Shown piece after piece: positions 29,289-37,495 of a stretch of DNA of 64,000 nucleotides (its first letter is position 1; the number at the start of each line of letters is the position of its first letter). The position numbers and the translations under genes are program-made. Origin of the DNA: Aggregatilinea lenta (GTDB lineage: Bacteria > Chloroflexota > Anaerolineae > Aggregatilineales > Aggregatilineaceae); the NCBI RefSeq assembly GCF_003569045.1, contig NZ_BFCB01000003.1, positions 124,001 to 188,000 of the forward strand. The letters run 5' to 3'. Below the pieces are notes generated by a model, which searched no databases, was not told the DNA's origin, and saw nothing but the letters and a program-made list of their open reading frames with translations.

Positions 29289-31394
29289 TCACGAAGAGAG
29301 CTTGCTCACGGCGCGCGAGTTTTCGGTGATGGCTTCCCGGCGCTCGCGAGCGTAATATTTGCCCAGCAGCGACATGGGAACGCGGTTCACCACCACGCCA
29401 ATGATGTTGGTCTGGATGTCGTCGAGGTACTGCAGCGCAAGGCGCAGCGCTTCGCGCGTGGTGTGGCGCTGCGACGCGACCACGATCACGGCATCGGCCA
29501 GTGCGGCCAGCACGGCGGTATCCGCCACAGCCAGCACGGACGGCGAGTCCACAATCACGTATTCGCAGTTCTTCAACAGGTCGGCTATCACGCTGGAGAT
29601 ACGCTCCGGCGTGGCGACGTCCGACAGATCCATCGCCGAGTTTCCGGCGGTCAGGATGCGCAGATTCTTGAAGCTGGTGTTCTGCAGCGCGGCCTCAAGC
29701 GGCTGGCTGCCCTGAAGCACTTCGGACAGGCCGATCTTGTTGGACTGGTTGAAGATCGAGTGTACGCCCGCGCTGCGGAAGTCACCGTCCACGATGATGG
29801 TGGAGTAACCGGCACGCGCCAGTGACACGCCCAGGTTGGCGACGACGGTCGTCTTGCCGCTGCCCTTTTCCGAGCTGGTGACCAAAATGCTGCCGCGCTC
29901 GGACAGCACGCTCTGAATGCGCACGCGCACGCCGAGCTGGCGGTAGGCATCCGCCGCGATGGAGTAGGTGTTGGCTTGCAGCGGCGGCAGGTTACGCTGC
30001 CGTGGCCAGCGTCCTTCGGAACTGGGCAGCTTGGTCAGCACGGGCAGGCCGCTGAGCACTTCGACTTCGCTGCTGCTGCGCAGCGTGCTGTCGAAGTTGT
30101 CCATGATGAAAGCCAGCAGCAACCCCGCCGCCAGACCACCCGCCAGGCCTAACACCAGATTCAAAATCTGGTTGGGACTGTCTGGTGTATCAGAGACATA
30201 GCCCGGCTCGATCACAGAAATCGCGTTGGCGCGCAGCTGCTCGTCGATGCGGATGTCTTCGTATCTCTGCAGCAGGCTGTTGTACTGGTCTTCACGCAGG
30301 ATCATTTGCCGTTCAAGGATCGCCAAATGTTCCTCTGACAGCTCGTCTGAGATCCCCACTTCATAGGCGGCGACGGCGTCGTTATAGTCGGCCTCGGCCT
30401 GTGAAACCTGATCGGACAGAATTTCGCGGGCAGAGATCGACGAATCGCCGGAATACAGTTCCAGGCTGCGTTCCTGGAGGATGTCGCCCAGGTGATTCGC
30501 CGCCGCCGCCACCAATTCTGGATCGGGACCGGAGGCAGTGATGCGCAGCAGTTCGCTGTCGGGCACGATCTCCACACTGATATCGGGCGCGGTGTCCACG
30601 TTTAGCTGGTCCGCTAGCTCATCGAGCACCGGCCCGCTGGTGACAATCGCTGAGTAGGTGTTGATCAGGCGCGTCGCCATCGTGCTGACCGACCAGATGT
30701 CCTGCTCAACACCCGCCGGGGAGGAGACAACGCGGACGGTGGCTGTTGAGGAATAGATGGGTGTCATCTGGCTCGTGATCAGCAGAGAAACACCGACTGC
30801 CACTGCAAGTGTGATGAGGATCACCCACTTGTAGCGCCCAAGCACGTGCGCATAGCCGACTATCTCGGATGCGACGGTGGCAGGGGCCTCGTCATACCGG
30901 GTGAGTCTGCGCGCTCCCGATGTCTGTGCCGGAATTTGAGTCAACTTTCCATCTTCTCCCGTTTCTACCTTCTCACTTACCTGTCCCGCACGTGCGGATA
31001 TACGTTCCGCCTTCGGATGTTTTACGCCATCCAATACGGTGTGCAGGAGTTGTTTTTTATCGAATGGTTTCAGCAAGTAGCTATCGATTCCCATATCATC
31101 TGCGTGTTTGAGGAAGGCCTGATCGTCTTTCTCCACGAGAAAGATGAACCGGATCCAGTTCCATGATTCGTTGGTTCGGACGGCGTCGAAGAACTCGAAG
31201 CCATCCTTCTTGGGCATCTTGATGTCCGACAGGATCACATCCGGGTCCAGGCCATCGTTCAACAGCTTCAGGGCAGCGGCGCCATCGGGAGCCGTTGTCA
31301 CCCGAATGTCGTTGCCCGTCAACCACTCTTCGATTTCGTCCCGCAGTGCGCGGTCGTCGTCCACCGCCAGAACGTGCCACTCAACGGAAGTCAT
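29289..31394 (-). CDS. Receiver-Wzz-tyrosine kinase fusion (exopolysaccharide chain-length/export regulator)
   Basis: This 701-residue protein has three parts. Residues 5-125 form a response-regulator receiver (AVDDD, Asp57 in ILSDIKMP, Lys109 in LLKPFD). Residues 175-435 form a Wzz chain-length domain with membrane helices at about 190-208 and 408-431 and a coiled region between. Residues 475-701 form a CpsD/CapB-type BY-kinase with Walker A SSEKGSGKTT (507-516), Walker A' IIVDGDFR and Walker B VIVDSPS. The C-terminal tail has only KYY, not a long tyrosine cluster. In the receiver the usual Thr/Ser before the Ala is replaced (FLVEKDD instead of FLTAKDD). First gene of the cluster; it probably controls polymer length. 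Confidence 0.85.
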   Translation of the reverse strand: MTSVEWHVLAVDDDRALRDEIEEWLTGNDIRVTTAPDGAAALKLLNDGLDPDVILSDIKMPKKDGFEFFDAVRTNESWNWIRFIFLVEKDDQAFLKHADDMGIDSYLLKPFDKKQLLHTVLDGVKHPKAERISARAGQVSEKVETGEDGKLTQIPAQTSGARRLTRYDEAPATVASEIVGYAHVLGRYKWVILITLAVAVGVSLLITSQMTPIYSSTATVRVVSSPAGVEQDIWSVSTMATRLINTYSAIVTSGPVLDELADQLNVDTAPDISVEIVPDSELLRITASGPDPELVAAAANHLGDILQERSLELYSGDSSISAREILSDQVSQAEADYNDAVAAYEVGISDELSEEHLAILERQMILREDQYNSLLQRYEDIRIDEQLRANAISVIEPGYVSDTPDSPNQILNLVLGLAGGLAAGLLLAFIMDNFDSTLRSSSEVEVLSGLPVLTKLPSSEGRWPRQRNLPPLQANTYSIAADAYRQLGVRVRIQSVLSERGSILVTSSEKGSGKTTVVANLGVSLARAGYSTIIVDGDFRSAGVHSIFNQSNKIGLSEVLQGSQPLEAALQNTSFKNLRILTAGNSAMDLSDVATPERISSVIADLLKNCEYVIVDSPSVLAVADTAVLAALADAVIVVASQRHTTREALRLALQYLDDIQTNIIGVVVNRVPMSLLGKYYARERREAITENSRAVSKLSS

Positions 31395-32106
31395 AGGCTT
31401 CTCTCACTCCACGCCAATGGCGCGTACTTCCCCGGATATTATTTAGTATACGGAGTCAACCTTGCAGTTCCACTAAAAGCCCTGGCCCTTCCTAACAACC
31501 GCCTATCAGCATGTAAGTTGAGGGGAAACTGACTCCGATTTTCTGGCAAAGTGGACCCTGTGGCGGCGCGCGCGACGGGCTTGCCGGGCACAAGGACCGG
31601 GGTGGGCCGGTTGTGGGCTGTTCGCCGGCAGGTATCGTAAGGCAAAATGTCGCACATTACAGGCCGGCGATCCGGCGGTTTTTCCGCGTGTGCAGTCGGG
31701 AGATGGAGGCTTTGTCACGGTCGCAGGTAGGCGAATGCGCGTTTACCGATTATCATAGAGGTGATGGGTCGGGTTCCTAACAACGGCATGCTATCCGCAA
31801 ATCCTTCGCCCTGGCAAAAGCCTGCGGTTTATTCTGGCTGCCTGAGGGACATTTGAGGGCCGAACTTGCGCAGCCTTTTGGTCTCGCCCATACTTAGTGA
31901 AGGTTATAAAATGGTTGCAGTTCGGTATTTTAGACATAATTTCGTCCAAAGATCGATTAACGCGGTAATATGTTAGGCATGGCCTATAGCTCTGCCTCCC
32001 ATTAGCTGGTAAGCGCATGCGGTAAGTCCTCATCTGCTGCACGCGCGGTTGCCCAGCATGGTACACCTGAAGGTTAACACCGAGCGTTCAAGTCGGAACT
32101 TGTGTG
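31395..32106. other. 712-base divergent intergenic region upstream of the EPS cluster and the STAND regulator
   Basis: No convincing gene lies here; the short minus-strand frames at about 31439-31718 and 31791-32066 show no family features or ribosome binding sites. An AGTATA at 31445-31450 (TATACT on the minus strand) is a weak candidate -10 for the EPS operon. Two GGTAAG words at 32008-32013 and 32021-32026, 13 bases apart, lie about 80-100 bases before the regulator start and recur before the peptide array. The segment is clearly less GC-rich than the genes around it. Confidence 0.6.
32008..32026. promoter_or_regulatory. Direct repeat GGTAAG x2, 13-base period, upstream of the regulator
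   Basis: GGTAAG occurs at 32008-32013 and 32021-32026. The same hexamer, with the same 13-base spacing but as an inverted pair, lies at 35312-35330 before the peptide array. It is a candidate binding site for the regulator itself; this is inference. Confidence 0.35.
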
Positions 32107-35100
32107 ATGGCTTCGACAATTCTCCAACGCGATACACACATCCCTCACTTTTCAGGTGTTATTCAGCGGCCTGTTCTCCTTGAGCGCTTGCAGGCAGTAG
32201 GCGATCACAAGCTGACGTTGGTCTGCGCCCCGCCTGGGTATGGCAAATCGACGATGGTGGCGCAGTTTGCCTACCAATCCTCCTATTCCGCCGCATGGCA
32301 GACGCTCGAAGAGCGCGACCGAGACGTGCCGAATCTGTACCGGCAGAGCCTTGCCTCGCTGGAACCCATCGCCGCCGGTGTTCAGGATCTGCCCGCCGAC
32401 CCGGTCGGTTATACGCCGGGCGAGCTGGCCGGGCTGATCGCGGATTACGTGCGCAACAACGTCGTCGACGATTTTGTGTACGTGCTCGACGACATTCAAT
32501 ACCTCGCGGGCGCGCCGGGCGCTGAGGGCTGGCTGCGCGCGCTGGTGTCGCTGATGCCCGCCAACTGCCATCTGGTGCTGATTGGCCGCATCCTGCCGGA
32601 TCTGCCGCTGACCGAGATGATCGCCCGCCGCGAAGTGCTGGCGCTCGGCCAGGAACAGCTCAAGTTCACGCCGACCGAAATCGACAGCCTCGCGCGCGAA
32701 GTGCTGGGCCTGTCGCCGTCGCCCGCCGAGGTCTACGACCTCGCCTCACGGCTGGAAGGCTGGCCCGCCGGGATCTTCCTGGCGCTGCGCCCGCTGCCGT
32801 CTGACCTTGAGCACGCCATGCTCAACGGCGGCGAAGGGCCGGAGGGCCTGTTCGACGCGCTGGCGAGCCTCATGCTGCGCGCCCAGCCGCCCGCCCTGCG
32901 CGACTTTCTGCTGGCTTCTTCTACGCTGGAACGGCTGACACCGGATCTGTGTACGGCGGCGCTGGGCCTGCGCGACAGCGCGCACTGGCTCAGCGAGGTG
33001 CAGAGCCGCAACCTGTTCATTTCGCGGGTGGCGAGCGGTCTGGTCTACCACCGGCTGTTCCGCACGCTGCTGCAGCACCAGCTCAAAGAGACCAATCCGA
33101 CGCTGTATTACGAGCTGCACGCCAGGGCGGCGCGGTGGTTCGAAGACAACAACCGTATCGACGAGGCGTTCGAACATTACCTGAATGCCGGGCTGTACAA
33201 GCGGGCCGTGACGATCGCGGAGCAGGTCAGCCGCTCGTACTTCACGCAGGGTAAGGTCGAGACGCTGCTGACGTGGCAAAACGCGCTGGCCAAAACCGGC
33301 GTGATCACGCCGCGTCTGGCATATGCGTGCGCGCTGATCCACACCGACCGCTACGCGTACCAGACCGCCGAGGCGGAGCTGGAACAGGCCGAGGCGGGCT
33401 TCGAGGCGACCGACAACGAGACGGGTATGGCCGAGGTCCGGCTTCAGCGCGCGATGATCAACCTGCAGCGCGGCCATTACGATCTGGCGATCGAGCAGGC
33501 GCTGCCCTTCCGGGATGCGCCGCGCGGTCCGTCGAACCTGCGCGGACGGGCGCTGCGCGTGATCGGCTTTGCCTCCGTGCGTCTTGGTCGCGTGGAAGAG
33601 GCGGTCGATTACCTCGAAGAGGCGCTGCCGCTGTTCAAGTCGTATGCCGACGCGTACGCGCTGACCAACCTGCTGCAAGACCTCGAAATGGGCTACACGC
33701 GCCTGGGCCGCAGTGAAGAGGCCAATGCCTGCCTGCAAGAGGTCGTCGCCTTGCGGCGCTCGCTGGGCAGCGCGGGGGCGCTGGCGCTGGCGCTGAACAA
33801 CCTCGGCTACCACTATCATCAGGTGGGCGATTACCAGCAGGCGCTGGTGACGTTTCAGGAAGGGCTGCGTATCGTGGCCCACGTCCCGGACAGCCGCGCC
33901 GAAAGTTACCTGCGCTGGAGTCTGGGCGACCTTCAGCGCGACCAGGGGAATTTTGAGGACGCGATTCGCCTGTATAACAAGTCGCTAGAGCTGATGGGCA
34001 GCAGTGAGCCGTCCCTACGGGCCAGCGTTCTGGTCAGCGCGTCGAACTTGCAGCGCTGGCGCGGCAAGTATTATGAGGCGCTGCTGCTGGCCGACGAAGC
34101 GGTCGCCCTGGCCGAGACGCACAACGTGGCGCTGGAACGCGCGCTGGCGCAGGCCGCGTTCTGGATCGCGCGGGCGCAGTCCGGCCAGGTGGACAGCGCG
34201 CTGCACAATCTCGACATGATCGTGATGGACCTGAAGCATCAGGGCATCAAGATCGAGCTGGTCCAGGTGCTCGGCCAAGCCGCGCACGTGGCGCTGCTGG
34301 TTGAAAAGACCAGCGTGGCGAAGGATTATCTGCAGATGGCGCTGGAAACCGCGCGTGACGGCGGCAGCGTGCAGCCCCTAGTCGCCGAAACGATCCACAC
34401 GCCGGTGCTGTACCAGCACGTTCTGCGCCAGCCCGACCACGACGTCACGCTGGTGCGGCGCATCAACCTTCTGCGCGATGCCCAGCTCAAGACGCAGCAG
34501 GATTCGACGTCCGTGACCCCGCCTGTCGTCCGGCCCGATACGTACAGCCTGCGCGTGCTCACGCTGGGGCAGGAGGCTGTCGAGCGCGACGGGCGGACCA
34601 TTTCGCCATCCGAGTGGCGGGCAGCCAGCGCGAAGGAGCTGTTCTTTTACCTGCTGTTCGAGGGCACGAAAACCCGCGAGCAGATCAGCCTGATCTTCTG
34701 GCCGGACAGCCCGACCAAGCGCGTGCGCTCCAACTTCCACACCACGCTGTACCGCGCGCGGCAAGCCGTGGGCGAAAATACGCTGCTTTTCGACAACGAC
34801 CGCTACTTCATCAACCCCGAACTCGACGTGTGGTGCGACGCGACCGAAATGGAAGGGCTTGCGCGACAGGCGCGCCTGCTCTCGCCGCACGACGCCCGCA
34901 CCGAGGACCTGTGGCGGCGAGCCGTCACACTCTACCGGGGCGAATTCCTCACCGCGCTCGACGCGGACTGGGCCTACACCCGCCGCGAAGCCTATCACGA
35001 GATCTACCTGGAAGCGCTGATTGGCCTGGGGATGTGCGCACGAGCGCGCGGTGACCTGCGCGAAGCCCTGGCGACGTTTAAGCAGGCGCTTGAGGTCGAT

Positions 35101-35268
35101 CCCTTCCGCGAAGACATCCACCGCGCCATCATGATGTGTTATGCCGAAAGTGGCGAAAAGAACAAGATCCACGTCCAATTCCAGGAGTTGAAGACTCTGC
35201 TCCAGGAGGAACTCGCCGTTGAACCAACGACGGAAACACTCCGGTTGGTGCAATCTCTGCTCGGCTAG
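32107..35268 (+). CDS. Large STAND ATPase-TPR transcriptional activator with C-terminal winged helix and BTAD domain
   Basis: This 1,053-residue MalT-like regulator has an N-terminal NTPase with Walker A CAPPGYGKST (40-49) and a Walker B-like FVYVLDDIQYL. A winged helix/arm region with LEGWPAGIFLAL comes next, then about 400 residues of TPR-like helical repeats (for example ALALNNLGYHYHQVGDYQQALVTFQ... and DLQRDQGNFEDAIRLYNKSL). The C-terminus (about 800-1053) is an OmpR-like DNA-binding domain plus a bacterial transcriptional activator domain (SNFHTTLYRARQ, YRGEFLTALDADW, LEVDPFREDIHRAIM). It has no LuxR-type HTH. TPRs in such proteins bind ligands or peptides. It reads into the small-peptide array after a terminator. 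A GTG at 32104 is an alternative start. Confidence 0.9.
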   Translation: MASTILQRDTHIPHFSGVIQRPVLLERLQAVGDHKLTLVCAPPGYGKSTMVAQFAYQSSYSAAWQTLEERDRDVPNLYRQSLASLEPIAAGVQDLPADPVGYTPGELAGLIADYVRNNVVDDFVYVLDDIQYLAGAPGAEGWLRALVSLMPANCHLVLIGRILPDLPLTEMIARREVLALGQEQLKFTPTEIDSLAREVLGLSPSPAEVYDLASRLEGWPAGIFLALRPLPSDLEHAMLNGGEGPEGLFDALASLMLRAQPPALRDFLLASSTLERLTPDLCTAALGLRDSAHWLSEVQSRNLFISRVASGLVYHRLFRTLLQHQLKETNPTLYYELHARAARWFEDNNRIDEAFEHYLNAGLYKRAVTIAEQVSRSYFTQGKVETLLTWQNALAKTGVITPRLAYACALIHTDRYAYQTAEAELEQAEAGFEATDNETGMAEVRLQRAMINLQRGHYDLAIEQALPFRDAPRGPSNLRGRALRVIGFASVRLGRVEEAVDYLEEALPLFKSYADAYALTNLLQDLEMGYTRLGRSEEANACLQEVVALRRSLGSAGALALALNNLGYHYHQVGDYQQALVTFQEGLRIVAHVPDSRAESYLRWSLGDLQRDQGNFEDAIRLYNKSLELMGSSEPSLRASVLVSASNLQRWRGKYYEALLLADEAVALAETHNVALERALAQAAFWIARAQSGQVDSALHNLDMIVMDLKHQGIKIELVQVLGQAAHVALLVEKTSVAKDYLQMALETARDGGSVQPLVAETIHTPVLYQHVLRQPDHDVTLVRRINLLRDAQLKTQQDSTSVTPPVVRPDTYSLRVLTLGQEAVERDGRTISPSEWRAASAKELFFYLLFEGTKTREQISLIFWPDSPTKRVRSNFHTTLYRARQAVGENTLLFDNDRYFINPELDVWCDATEMEGLARQARLLSPHDARTEDLWRRAVTLYRGEFLTALDADWAYTRREAYHEIYLEALIGLGMCARARGDLREALATFKQALEVDPFREDIHRAIMMCYAESGEKNKIHVQFQELKTLLQEELAVEPTTETLRLVQSLLG

Positions 35269-35283
35269 GGCAATTTCTCCGAC

Positions 35284-35308
35284 AAACCGCCAATTTTGGC
35301 GGTTTTTT
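35284..35308 (+). terminator. Rho-independent terminator after the regulator
   Basis: A 9-bp stem AAACCGCCA / TGGCGGTTT with a 4-base loop and T-run ends the regulator transcript. The peptide array therefore needs its own promoter. Confidence 0.9.
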
Positions 35309-35311
35309 GAT

Positions 35312-35330
35312 CTTACCGCGATCTGGTAAG
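35312..35330. promoter_or_regulatory. Inverted repeat CTTACC-N7-GGTAAG upstream of the peptide array
   Basis: It lies 77-95 bases before the first peptide ATG and shares the GGTAAG word and 13-base spacing with the region upstream of the regulator. I could not identify clear -35/-10 hexamers between it and the first peptide gene. Confidence 0.4.
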
Positions 35331-35406
35331 CACTCTGTTGTACACCCCCCGTTATCGTAAAGGCATCATTAATTTCCTGACACGATAAAAGCGGAGGTCA
35401 ATCCTC

Positions 35407-35565
35407 ATGAAACACCGTCTTCTGTCCGTTTCTTCCTGGTTTGCATCCGATCCTCGTCGCGCACGTACCGTCATGTTTGTCGCGTTGACGGCGCTGGCTC
35501 TCGTGCCGGGCGGTTCTGCGCTGGCCGGTCAGGCATCCGGCGGCAGCGGCAGCCCGCTTCCGTAA
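35407..35565 (+). CDS. Tandem secreted-peptide precursor, copy 1 (52 residues)
   Basis: A GGAGG lies 9 bases before the ATG. The product has a basic N-terminus (MKHRLLSV), a conserved SSWFASDPRRARTV block, a hydrophobic core (MFVALTALALVPGG) and a signal-peptidase-like site SALA before GQASGGSGSPLP. The expected mature peptide is therefore about 12 residues. This is one of five tandem paralogues repeating every 241-251 bases. Compared with copy 2 over codons 10-52 it has 23 synonymous and only 3 amino-acid-changing differences, showing selection on the protein. No known family is recognised. Alternatives are a small membrane protein or a type I toxin-like peptide. Confidence 0.8.
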   Translation: MKHRLLSVSSWFASDPRRARTVMFVALTALALVPGGSALAGQASGGSGSPLP

Positions 35566-35654
35566 CGACGGGTTAGACGTTTCACCTTTTTTAATCATTC
35601 GTTAAGCCATAAACCATTCAAGTTCAATGAATTGACGCATAGGAGAGAAATGCG

Positions 35655-35813
35655 ATGAAAAACCGTTTGATGCTGGCGACGACCTGGTTTGCTTCTGACC
35701 CGCGCCGCGCGCGCACCGTTCTGTTCGTAGCGTTGACGGCCCTCGCGCTGGTACCCGGTGGATCGGCCCTGGCAGGTCAGGCGTCCGGTGGCAGCGGCAA
35801 CCCGCTTCCGTAA
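35655..35813 (+). CDS. Tandem secreted-peptide precursor, copy 2 (52 residues)
   Basis: An AGGAGA lies upstream of the ATG. The product starts MKNRLMLATTWFASDPRRARTV and keeps the hydrophobic core and SALA cleavage-like site, ending GQASGGSGNPLP (Asn where copies 1 and 4 have Ser). The body is almost identical to copies 3 and 4 in DNA, so these three duplicated recently, whereas copies 1 and 5 are older. Its 5' spacer (35566-35654) differs from those of copies 3 and 4. Confidence 0.82.
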   Translation: MKNRLMLATTWFASDPRRARTVLFVALTALALVPGGSALAGQASGGSGNPLP

Positions 35814-35905
35814 GGCATCGCATCACTTGTCTGTGTGTCACTTGATTAGTGCTCGACTTCTTGACCTGAACGTATCCGCGCAACCGCGCGTCTGAGGAGC
35901 CTGAA

Positions 35906-36052
35906 ATGAAGAACCGTCTGATGTTGGCGACGACCTGGTTTGCTTCTGACCCGCGCCGTGCGCGCACCGTTCTGTTCGTAGCATTGACGGCCCTGGCGCT
36001 GGTGCCCGGTGGCTCGGCCCTGGCGGGTCAGGCGTCCGGTGGCAGTGGATAG
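35906..36052 (+). CDS. Tandem secreted-peptide precursor, copy 3 (48 residues, short form)
   Basis: GAGGAG lies 6 bases before the ATG. The protein equals copy 2 up to GQASGGSG and then stops (GGA TAG). The bases after the stop, TCCGCTTCCGTAA, are the remains of the longer ending found in copies 1, 2 and 4, now out of frame. The predicted mature peptide is GQASGGSG. The 5' spacer is nearly identical to that of copy 4, so the duplicated unit includes the leader and ribosome binding site. Confidence 0.8.
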   Translation: MKNRLMLATTWFASDPRRARTVLFVALTALALVPGGSALAGQASGGSG

Positions 36053-36152
36053 TCCGCTTCCGTAACGGCACGCTCGATTCGGCATCATCTGATCTATGCT
36101 CGACCTTTTGACCTGAACGTATCCGCGCAGCCGCGCGTCTGAGGAGCCTCAA

Positions 36153-36311
36153 ATGAAGAACCGTCTGATGTTGGCGACGACCTGGTTTGCTTCTGACCCG
36201 CGCCGTGCGCGCACTGTTCTGTTCGTAGCATTGACGGCCCTGGCGTTGGTGCCCGGCGGCTCGGCCCTGGCGGGTCAGGCGTCCGGTGGCAGCGGCAGCC
36301 CGCTTCCGTAA
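36153..36311 (+). CDS. Tandem secreted-peptide precursor, copy 4 (52 residues)
   Basis: GAGGAG lies 6 bases before the ATG. The protein is the same as copy 2 except that it ends GQASGGSGSPLP. The preceding ~50 bases (from about TTGACCTGAACG to the ribosome binding site) are duplicated from the leader of copy 3 with a few changes. The unit length between copies 3 and 4 is 247 bases. Confidence 0.82.
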   Translation: MKNRLMLATTWFASDPRRARTVLFVALTALALVPGGSALAGQASGGSGSPLP

Positions 36312-36393
36312 CGGCACGACGAATCGTTCGTAACCTTTCAACCGAGGCAGCGGTTTACCGGTAGGTAGTGCACCGATATACAGGGGATTCGAG

Positions 36394-36540
36394 ATGAAGC
36401 ACCGTTTGATGTTGGCAACGACCTGGCTGGCCTCGGACCCGCGACGCGCACGCACCGTCCTGTTGGTGGCATTGACGGCCCTGGCGCTGGTTCCCGGCGG
36501 GTCCGCCCTGGCAGGCCAGGCGTCCGGCGGCAGTGGATAG
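36394..36540 (+). CDS. Tandem secreted-peptide precursor, copy 5 (48 residues, short form)
   Basis: AGGGGA lies upstream of the ATG. The product starts MKHRLMLATTWLASDPRRARTVLLVAL and ends GQASGGSG followed by TAG, like copy 3. DNA and flanks are more diverged from copies 2-4, yet the protein stays close (F to L changes only in the hydrophobic parts). No remnant of the longer tail follows the stop. Last member of the array, about 120 bases before the Os1348-like gene. Confidence 0.8.
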   Translation: MKHRLMLATTWLASDPRRARTVLLVALTALALVPGGSALAGQASGGSG

Positions 36541-36667
36541 CCCTACTTAGAGAATACAGTTACTTGTTTAAGGTTGAAGGCCAATCACACCAGTTGAATT
36601 GGCGTGGCCAAAATGATTACGGCGGTTGACCGCTTGAAGATGTAATGGATACAAGGAGTGGATGACA

Positions 36668-36967
36668 ATGGCGCTTATGGATCAGACCCCGGTGATGGAC
36701 GTCCTGCCGTGGCCACAGGGACACGGATTTTCTGGAACAGGGACGTGGTGGGAATACGTCATGAATAAGGAAGAACGCGCGCGCCTCGATAGCCTGATGG
36801 GTATCGCGCTGCTGGACGATGACGTGTGCAAGCGGTTGGTCGATGACCGCGACGATAACTTGCTCGAAGCCTTCGGGCTGTCGGAGAAGACGCGCAACTG
36901 GCTGCACGCTATCCAGGCCACGTCGCTCACCGAACTGGCGCAGAAGCTCGTATCGTTGAGCAGCTAA
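36668..36967 (+). CDS. Small Os1348/NHLP-clan-like protein (99 residues)
   Basis: AAGGAG at 36653-36658 is 9 bases before this ATG; an ATG at 36662 is only 3 bases away and less likely. The N-terminal third (MALMDQTPVMDVLPWPQGHGF...TGTWW) is not recognised. The rest, LDSLMGIALLDDDVCKRLVDDRDDNLLEAFGLSEKTRNWL...SLTELAQKLV, resembles the Os1348/Franean1_4349-type NHLP leader-like proteins. In these, a short helical domain of the form L-x-L-L-G-x-A-L-x-D is followed by E-A-F-G-L-S. Such proteins are linked to ribosomal peptide systems. No core peptide or modifying enzyme is visible here. Confidence 0.65.
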   Translation: MALMDQTPVMDVLPWPQGHGFSGTGTWWEYVMNKEERARLDSLMGIALLDDDVCKRLVDDRDDNLLEAFGLSEKTRNWLHAIQATSLTELAQKLVSLSS

Positions 36968-37062: not shown

Positions 37063-37108
37063 ATGACCTTTAGGGCAAAAGGTGAAAATTGTAAACAAAA
37101 GGCGCCGT

Positions 37109-37495
37109 ATGAACGAGCTAATCATGGTTGTTGACGACGATCCGGGTATCCTCGCCCTTGTGGACGTGATGCTGCGCAAACACGGCTTCACGGTGCTGAG
37201 GGCGAACGGTGCATACGAGGCATTGAAGTACCTCGATACGGTAACGCCCAGCGTCATCGTGCTCGACGTGATGATGCCGGACATGAACGGGATCGAGTTG
37301 TGCGAGCAAATTCGTATGCGGCCTCAAACGACTGTGACGCCGGTGATTATGCTATCGGCCCGCAGCGACTCACGTAGTGTAGCCAGCGCAATGCAGGTGG
37401 GCGCAAACAGCTATATTTCGAAGACGGCAGTGTATCACGAGTTGATAGCGCAGATCCGCAGCCTTCTGGACGCGCAGGCACGTAACGGTCGGTAG
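37109..37495 (+). CDS. Receiver-only response regulator
   Basis: This 128-residue single-domain receiver shows the acidic triad VVDDDPG (Asp9-11), phosphoacceptor Asp53 in VLDVMMPDMNG, the Ser of MLSARSD and Lys105 in YISKT. No output domain follows. The ATG at 37109 has AAAGG about 8 bases upstream and is preferred over a GTG at 37082. Its partner kinase is not adjacent. It may relay phosphate to another regulator or act by protein contact near the peptide system. Confidence 0.85.
   Translation: MNELIMVVDDDPGILALVDVMLRKHGFTVLRANGAYEALKYLDTVTPSVIVLDVMMPDMNGIELCEQIRMRPQTTVTPVIMLSARSDSRSVASAMQVGANSYISKTAVYHELIAQIRSLLDAQARNGR

Follow-up and report, generated by a model that had tools for sequence, protein, structure and literature searches.

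What might a bacterium gain from five near-identical genes for very small, exported-looking proteins, set one behind the other? Such an array lies in Aggregatilinea lenta, a member of the phylum Chloroflexota, within a stretch of 64,000 nucleotides (contig NZ_BFCB01000003.1, positions 124,001 to 188,000; hereafter the window, whose own numbering is used throughout). The reading that we favour, and to which we give a little less than an even chance, is that the array encodes the propeptides of a short exported signalling peptide that works in a loop with the regulator encoded next to it, here termed REG. A preliminary description of the same DNA had recognised a selected, exported-looking mini-peptide family, and this part stands; it had missed REG, the promoter element, the partner genes and the wider spread of the system. 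The locus runs from REG through the mini-peptide genes to a downstream partner (DS101) and a receiver domain, an order that is met again in the neighbourhoods fetched from relatives. Its features are as follows:

32104..35268, plus strand: regulator (REG), 1054 amino acids (aa), with a MalT-like STAND NTPase, a TPR superhelix and a C-terminal SARP winged helix plus BTAD
35284..35305, plus strand: intrinsic terminator-like hairpin after REG, 9 pairs
35325..35344, plus strand: conserved promoter/operator element GGTAAGCA-ctct-GTTGTACA, aligned in close loci
35353..35358, plus strand: -10-like hexamer TATCGT, 8 bp after the conserved element
35407..35565, plus strand: mini-peptide gene copy 1, 52 aa, tail GQASGGSGSPLP
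35655..35813, plus strand: mini-peptide gene copy 2, 52 aa, tail GQASGGSGNPLP
35906..36052, plus strand: mini-peptide gene copy 3, 48 aa, tail GQASGGSG
36153..36311, plus strand: mini-peptide gene copy 4, 52 aa, tail GQASGGSGSPLP
36394..36540, plus strand: mini-peptide gene copy 5, 48 aa, tail GQASGGSG
36662..36967, plus strand: downstream partner DS101, 101 aa, predicted to be helical and conserved in 16 aligned loci
37082..37495, plus strand: stand-alone receiver domain (response regulator), 137 aa; PF00072, E 3.4e-28

The five frames are real and are kept by selection. All are present on the plus strand as first described, with starts 248, 251, 247 and 241 bases apart and a purine-rich stretch suited to ribosome binding before each. 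DPRRARTV, a hydrophobic core and SALA occur in all five products, which end in GQASGGSG or GQASGGSG(S/N)PLP. The preliminary count of 23 synonymous and 3 nonsynonymous changes between copies 1 and 2 is reproduced (codons 10–48 give 23 and 2, to which S49N is added), and across the ten copy pairs the ratio of nonsynonymous to synonymous substitution rates (dN/dS) over 48 codons ranges from 0 to 0.070. Copies 2, 3, and 4 encode the same protein over these codons, with 5–12 synonymous and 0 nonsynonymous differences between any two; copy 1 is the most diverged (dS of 1.4 to 2.3 versus the other copies). Past the stop codon of copy 3, an out-of-frame remnant of the SPLP extension persists in the DNA, and the 8-residue tail of this copy therefore looks secondary, albeit close relatives usually have tails of 7–8 residues.

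That no described family matches the mini-peptide, as had been claimed, holds for Pfam (E ≤ 0.1), PHROGs (E ≤ 0.1), and PADLOC (E ≤ 0.01); NCBIfam gives a single match below its cut-off (14.6 bits versus 35), and tblastn against plasmids at E ≤ 1 found none. Rfam, searched over the whole window at gathering scores, gave 0 matches.

The preliminary description had named a lack of homologous arrays in related genomes as one ground for refutation; such loci and arrays exist. Within the order, the mini-peptide matched 29 of 154 genomes at E ≤ 0.05 (the own genome included), the best of these matches having the same anatomy, and several relatives likewise carry tandem copies. From these, 20 stretches were fetched; L061, L063 and L064 (locus numbers are our own) lacked a convincing peptide and were dropped before neighbourhoods were counted. 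Class-wide matches at E ≤ 1 (120 of 199 genomes) seemed mostly chance-like and were given up in favour of the order search.

Relatives were also sought through DS101, whose profile had matches in the order (42 of 154 genomes), in a class sample (38 of 396) and in a phylum sample (8 of 400), these samples overlapping. The 74 DS101 loci (window included) comprise 54 with at least 1800 nt upstream, and REG lies on the same strand within 2 kb in 45 of the 54. A strict mini-peptide filter, demanding a ribosome binding site, a basic start, a hydrophobic segment, and a short Gly-containing tail, found an open reading frame (ORF) after REG in 41 of 51 loci (the call in L188 being false), against 0–1 of 51 in ten dinucleotide-preserving shuffles and 2 in antisense; inside the REG gene, none of 91 segments of 1.5 kb passed. 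The filter was loosened once, and both versions were run with controls: the looser one placed a mini-peptide ORF in 44 of 49 REG–DS101 pairs (L188 again false), against 0–2 of 49 in 20 shuffles and 3 in antisense. It errs in both directions, the L188 call being a piece of a DUF5317-like gene (discussed below) and one of two calls in L307 looking spurious, while an evident peptide in L159 and a short one in L216 escape it. At least two copies occur in 6 of the 49 pairs, and single-copy loci are thus commoner than arrays. Outside the 49, in L164 (5172 bases), REG is divergent from two near-identical peptide copies, its match being split across two frames.

Close loci are not independent of the peptide, since they were found partly through peptide similarity; distant loci, in which REG is 26–32% identical, were found through DS101 alone. 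A search with the REG profile by itself (E ≤ 1e-60) matched 147 of 199 class genomes and 157 of 301 phylum genomes. About 30 best-scoring matches were listed per search, and of the 55 loci fetched, 17 were known and 38 new. A mini-peptide ORF lies within 1.2 kb of REG in 28 of these 38 independent loci, against 0–5 of 38 in shuffles and 5 in antisense; among the ten that lie outside the class, six have one. L216, outside the class, combines a REG of 28% identity with an 8-of-8 direct repeat at 11 bp and, by eye, a 33-residue ORF. In the own genome, the strict filter applied as a control to the loci around ten of 17 other REG-search matches (L218–L227) gave one weak ORF in one locus. Locus counts exceed the number of independent cases because near-identical loci (L053 and L054) and loci of one genus (six, f14) are included; among the 38, too, many are mutually related (the INRQH group, for example), and independent cases are fewer.

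A conserved promoter element accompanies the pairing. The hairpin after REG would separate the regulator from the peptide operon, although it is weak by itself, with 3 such sites in the region versus 2.2 expected. Beyond it, the conserved element aligned in all 25 loci with a REG identity of at least 41%, an alignment that left out L160 (no peptide ORF and no site) and L164 (in which the regulator faces away); L053 and L054 (REG 40.9%) also hold it, at 20 of 34 positions versus the consensus. In close loci, the element stands 63–103 nt upstream of the first peptide start, and sites there agree with the consensus at 20–30 of 34 positions, against 15–19 for the best sites of loci that lack the element. 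In all 25 aligned sites, the second base of the -10-like hexamer is A and the sixth is T. A 16-base core of the element has, across the own genome of 6.2 Mb, one exact match and four with one mismatch, versus two for a reversed control; with a single exact match, the peptide operon seems to be the principal target.

In distant loci, the promoter sequence varies (CGTGAGAG, TGTGAGG, TTGAAGCC, TGGTAAGA, AGCTAAAC). Of the 21 distant loci in which a peptide could be placed, 14 have a direct repeat that matches at 7 or more of 8 positions, stands before TANNNT, and has a period of 11 or 12; the remaining periods between 7 and 19 gave 0. One of the 14 is of low complexity and six are of one genus; L190 and L196, where no placement was possible, were left out of the count. 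In the independent set, 19 of 28 loci show such repeats, 7 of them at period 11 and 12 at period 12, and the other periods together add 1. Published SARP operators consist of direct repeats of 11 or 22 bp, with 8 bp between the final repeat and the -10 hexamer (PMC10936776; PMC5930380), and the repeats of the relatives fit this rule. L155, L145, and the independent L277 combine a half-site match of 7–8 of 8 with a sequence similar to that of the window clade. Two further loci outside the class, L310 and L312, hold REG, a mini-peptide, and an 8-of-8 direct repeat at 11 bp (TGGTAAGA); their genomes are small (L310, 1.8 Mb spread over about 40 contigs; L312, 1.7 Mb as a single contig), and they are possible culture targets.

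REG ends at 35268 and copy 1 starts at 35407, which makes the regulator and propeptide genes direct neighbours. Pfam recognises TPR_12 (E 3.1e-26) and a C-terminal BTAD (E 1.8e-19) in REG, NCBIfam gives matches below cut-off to its MalT and AfsR models, the latter covering 811–1053, and PADLOC returns TPR models only. A profile of 40 relatives compared with the PDB aligned positions 3–396 to MalT (8bob, E 1.7e-72) and 786–1036 to residues 32–283 of AfsR (8jke, E 1.8e-43), that is, to the whole SARP domain; REG has both the winged helix and the BTAD that define a SARP. The AlphaFold2 model (mean predicted local distance difference test [pLDDT] 87.9; predicted template modelling score 0.67) shows the TPR region as repeated helix pairs, and Foldseek matched it to MalT (TMt 0.75) and to the SARP domain of AfsR (TMt 0.75–0.79).

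The peptides of close relatives mostly consist of a W, a DPRR-like motif, a hydrophobic core, and A-x-A followed by a tail of 7–8 residues, either GxA(T/S)GG(S/V)H or x(E/D)ITSGS; in the independent set, tails often read SGAPxxFGG or GAPxDGGG. Two of three groups have their highest conservation in the tail (identity 0.61 versus 0.23 for the core, and 0.73 versus 0.39). Across 43 typed peptides, the last eight residues are 40% Gly, a figure on which the demand of the finder for at least one Gly bears, and 4.4% charged (KRDE). One ORF, in L159 (4656–4847), contains the tail unit DGQAPGGSY three times behind a single signal-like segment, akin to the multi-pheromone propeptides described for Rap systems (PMC11343458). 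Tails in several relatives are Cys-rich (e.g., GTGSSCCPGC and AGHCSC), with Cys pairs in L155, L156, L147, L148, L157, and L194 (CCPGC, HCSC, CPGC, CGMC, CGSC, and CNPC), so that disulfide or thiol chemistry is possible in this subset.

The genes and the selection on them, the conserved pairing, the operator pattern of the relatives, and the domains of the regulator suggest a chain of regulation, expression, export, cleavage, and sensing. REG would bind the dedicated operator before copy 1 and switch on the peptide genes, and probably DS101 and the receiver domain as well. The product is predicted to insert in the membrane with its basic DPRRAR motif inside and the Gly/Ser tail of 8–12 residues outside; the tail would then be set free, probably by a cut behind ALA in the window type. 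The free tail may act as the signal, most simply by being re-imported and bound by the TPR superhelix of REG, which would close a positive feedback loop, and the extra gene copies would raise the peptide dose. Matches to oligopeptide-binding proteins (PF00496) at 20 places in the own genome permit re-import, though they do not demonstrate it.

Several observations weigh against this reading. By the filter, a mini-peptide is missing from 5 of the 49 pairs (L159 has one by eye) and from 10 of the 38 independent REG loci, and the close relative L160 has neither a peptide ORF nor the element. Of the 70 loci having at least 900 nt downstream, 42 have a receiver relative no more than 700 nt from DS101; in the other 28, the gene was not detected. 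Within the window clade, the operator halves match weakly, with a mean of 4.24 of 8 at period 12, no other period between 7 and 15 exceeding 2.72; the own halves of the window agree at 4 of 8 positions at 12 bp, 8 bp before TATCGT, and none of 21 window-clade loci showed a period-11 direct repeat of 6 of 7. The TPR region of REG matches RRNPP receptors (RapH and NprR) less well than it does many unrelated TPR proteins. The third peptide group shows practically equal conservation of tail and core (0.59 versus 0.58). The juxtamembrane motif before the core (DPRR in the window type; INRQHIQ, at 0.86, in another) is itself conserved, with identities of 0.46, 0.53, and 0.86 in the three groups, and the N-terminus may thus do more than a plain signal peptide. 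Finally, A-x-A was seen by eye within 16 residues of the end in 20 of 43 typed peptides, with proline following it in three of these 20. Cleavage is therefore doubtful in the many distant peptides that lack the site, and the release step may differ there; the signal-peptidase site of the preliminary description is plausible for the window type and does not extend to all relatives.

The conserved motif before the core and the 23 of 43 peptides without a nearby A-x-A are what would be expected of a mini-protein that stays uncleaved in the membrane, its cytoplasmic motif tethering or regulating REG, DS101, or a kinase that feeds the receiver, and its tail serving as an outside sensor or cap. We consider this unlikely, though deserving of real weight: in two of the three groups, conservation is highest in the tail, whose threefold repetition in L159 fits release better than anchoring.

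The DS101 model is helical, with a mean pLDDT of 69.5 and the first 23 residues under 50; Foldseek found no fold match at E ≤ 0.001, VIA-align none with Z ≥ 5 among 33 chains, and PADLOC and PHROGs gave no match. Weak matches to PF14407 occur in 12 of 16 DS101 relatives (best E 0.001), the window protein reaching 15 bits versus a family cut-off of 48. NHLP leaders (the Frankia-peptide class of ribosomally synthesised and post-translationally modified peptides, RiPPs) resemble DS101, and no other part of the locus, in this weak profile likeness and in its ALLDxxxxxRL and FGLSxET segments, which recall two NHLP leader motifs (PMC2887384). Unlike that class, DS101 scores below cut-off, and the window protein ends at the conserved region with no Gly-Gly cleavage motif and no core peptide. 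The whole DS101 ORFs of L053, L054, and L058 likewise end without Gly-Gly; most other relatives were aligned over the matched part. The receiver gene has three weak matches in PADLOC. DS101 and the lone receiver could each serve as an output or an adaptor.

In L176, L182, L184, L188, and L193, REG is followed by a DUF5317-like membrane protein. Pieces of DUF5317-like proteins also occur in L277, L280, L283, L284, L288, and L300. Peptides in both sets of loci often have SGAPxxFGG-like ends, and the protein may replace or join DS101 there. In the window, the minus-strand gene at 29289–31394, adjoining REG, encodes a fusion of a receiver, a Wzz chain-length domain, and a ParA-like ATPase, and borders a minus-strand stretch that resembles, by eye, a polysaccharide cluster.

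Families shared by at least 5 of 51 neighbourhoods are REG, receivers, DS101, DUF5317-like proteins, an ABC permease, and overlapping reverse-strand ORFs; the permease is shared by 6 loci and is of the sugar type by eye. Neither a peptide exporter nor a modifying enzyme is among these common families, which were built from ORFs of at least 70 aa, with locus-specific enzymes, immunity genes, and distant genes not sought. This argues against a bacteriocin or RiPP cluster and makes unlikely the proposal that the peptide is an output, secreted as an antimicrobial or surface-active agent, whose genes REG activates on another cue. SARP regulators are known to activate antibiotic production genes (PMC10936776), tandem copies could raise the dose, and the Cys-rich tails of several relatives, such as GTGSSCCPGC and AGHCSC, would suit such an agent; the tail is nonetheless very short, nearly uncharged and Gly-rich, and its sequence is kept, not diversified, within groups.

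The architecture of REG recalls AfsR/AfsS, PimR, and the large SARP and SARP-LAL regulators of Streptomyces, which join a STAND-type ATPase, TPRs, and a SARP domain, and the direct-repeat operator of about 11-bp period before the -10 hexamer, weak in the window, is a SARP trait in its relatives. The SARP domain is, however, N-terminal in AfsR and C-terminal in REG. With MalT, the STAND activator of the maltose system, REG shares the N-terminal ATPase and sensor fold; its DNA-binding domain and target are different. AfsR, a SARP with ATPase and TPRs, activates the afsS promoter (PMC10936776), and by similar wiring the array could comprise small intracellular effector genes turned on by a SARP. 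We hold this to be very unlikely: the target here is predicted to be a membrane or exported-looking mini-peptide, whose hydrophobic segment is followed by a tail expected on the outer side. That there is no functional system, the array copies repeating one another as neutral repeats or the frames being spurious intergenic ORFs, has a negligible chance and is already contradicted by dN/dS of at most 0.07, conservation across families, and the shuffle controls. Among the roles first listed for the array (pheromone, bacteriocin, surface peptide, or type I toxin-like array), a pheromone is thus the option that the evidence favours, and the better conservation of the tail and the juxtamembrane motif speaks against a type I toxin.

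In its layout, the signalling locus that we favour works like RRNPP (RRNPPA) quorum sensing, as in PlcR-PapR and Rap-Phr: a cytoplasmic TPR regulator lies beside a small, exported-looking propeptide. The propeptides of 48–52 aa fall inside the RRNPP range of 10–100 aa, and in that family the last 4–10 residues form the signal and duplicated pheromones occur (PMC10075063; PMC11343458). RRNPP propeptides are exported by Sec, and the mature peptide, once imported, binds the receptor TPRs and alters receptor activity; the five copies here show a basic start, a hydrophobic core, and SALA. The locus is not a member of the family, since REG, with 1054 aa, a STAND ATPase, and a SARP end, exceeds the 250–500 aa of RRNPP receptors. 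The host phylum also differs, oligopeptide quorum sensing being described mainly from Bacillota (PMC10075063), and peptide sensing in Chloroflexota is here our inference. STAND proteins presumably rest until an inducer arrives (PMC10936776). No peptide signal of this design, linked to Chloroflexota or to SARP regulators, was met among the titles and abstract openings listed by searches of the open literature.

More broadly, we tentatively envisage communication by peptides across the phylum, in which STAND-TPR-SARP regulators sense adjacent exported Gly-rich mini-peptides, a proposal whose chances fall somewhat short of even. Each REG may, with similar reserve, be wired through its own diverging direct-repeat operator, the whole having arisen independently of RRNPP systems in Bacillota, and the window could, on a comparably cautious estimate, be one such system amplified to five copies. 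The regulator-paired mini-peptide locus suggests an undescribed peptide signalling system, and the predicted operators, regulators, and peptides of 7–12 residues make the proposal directly testable with synthetic peptides. If it is true, STAND-SARP regulators would gain a ligand class, and a large, little-cultured phylum would possess a form of peptide signalling of its own that joins a STAND ATPase to an antibiotic-type regulator.

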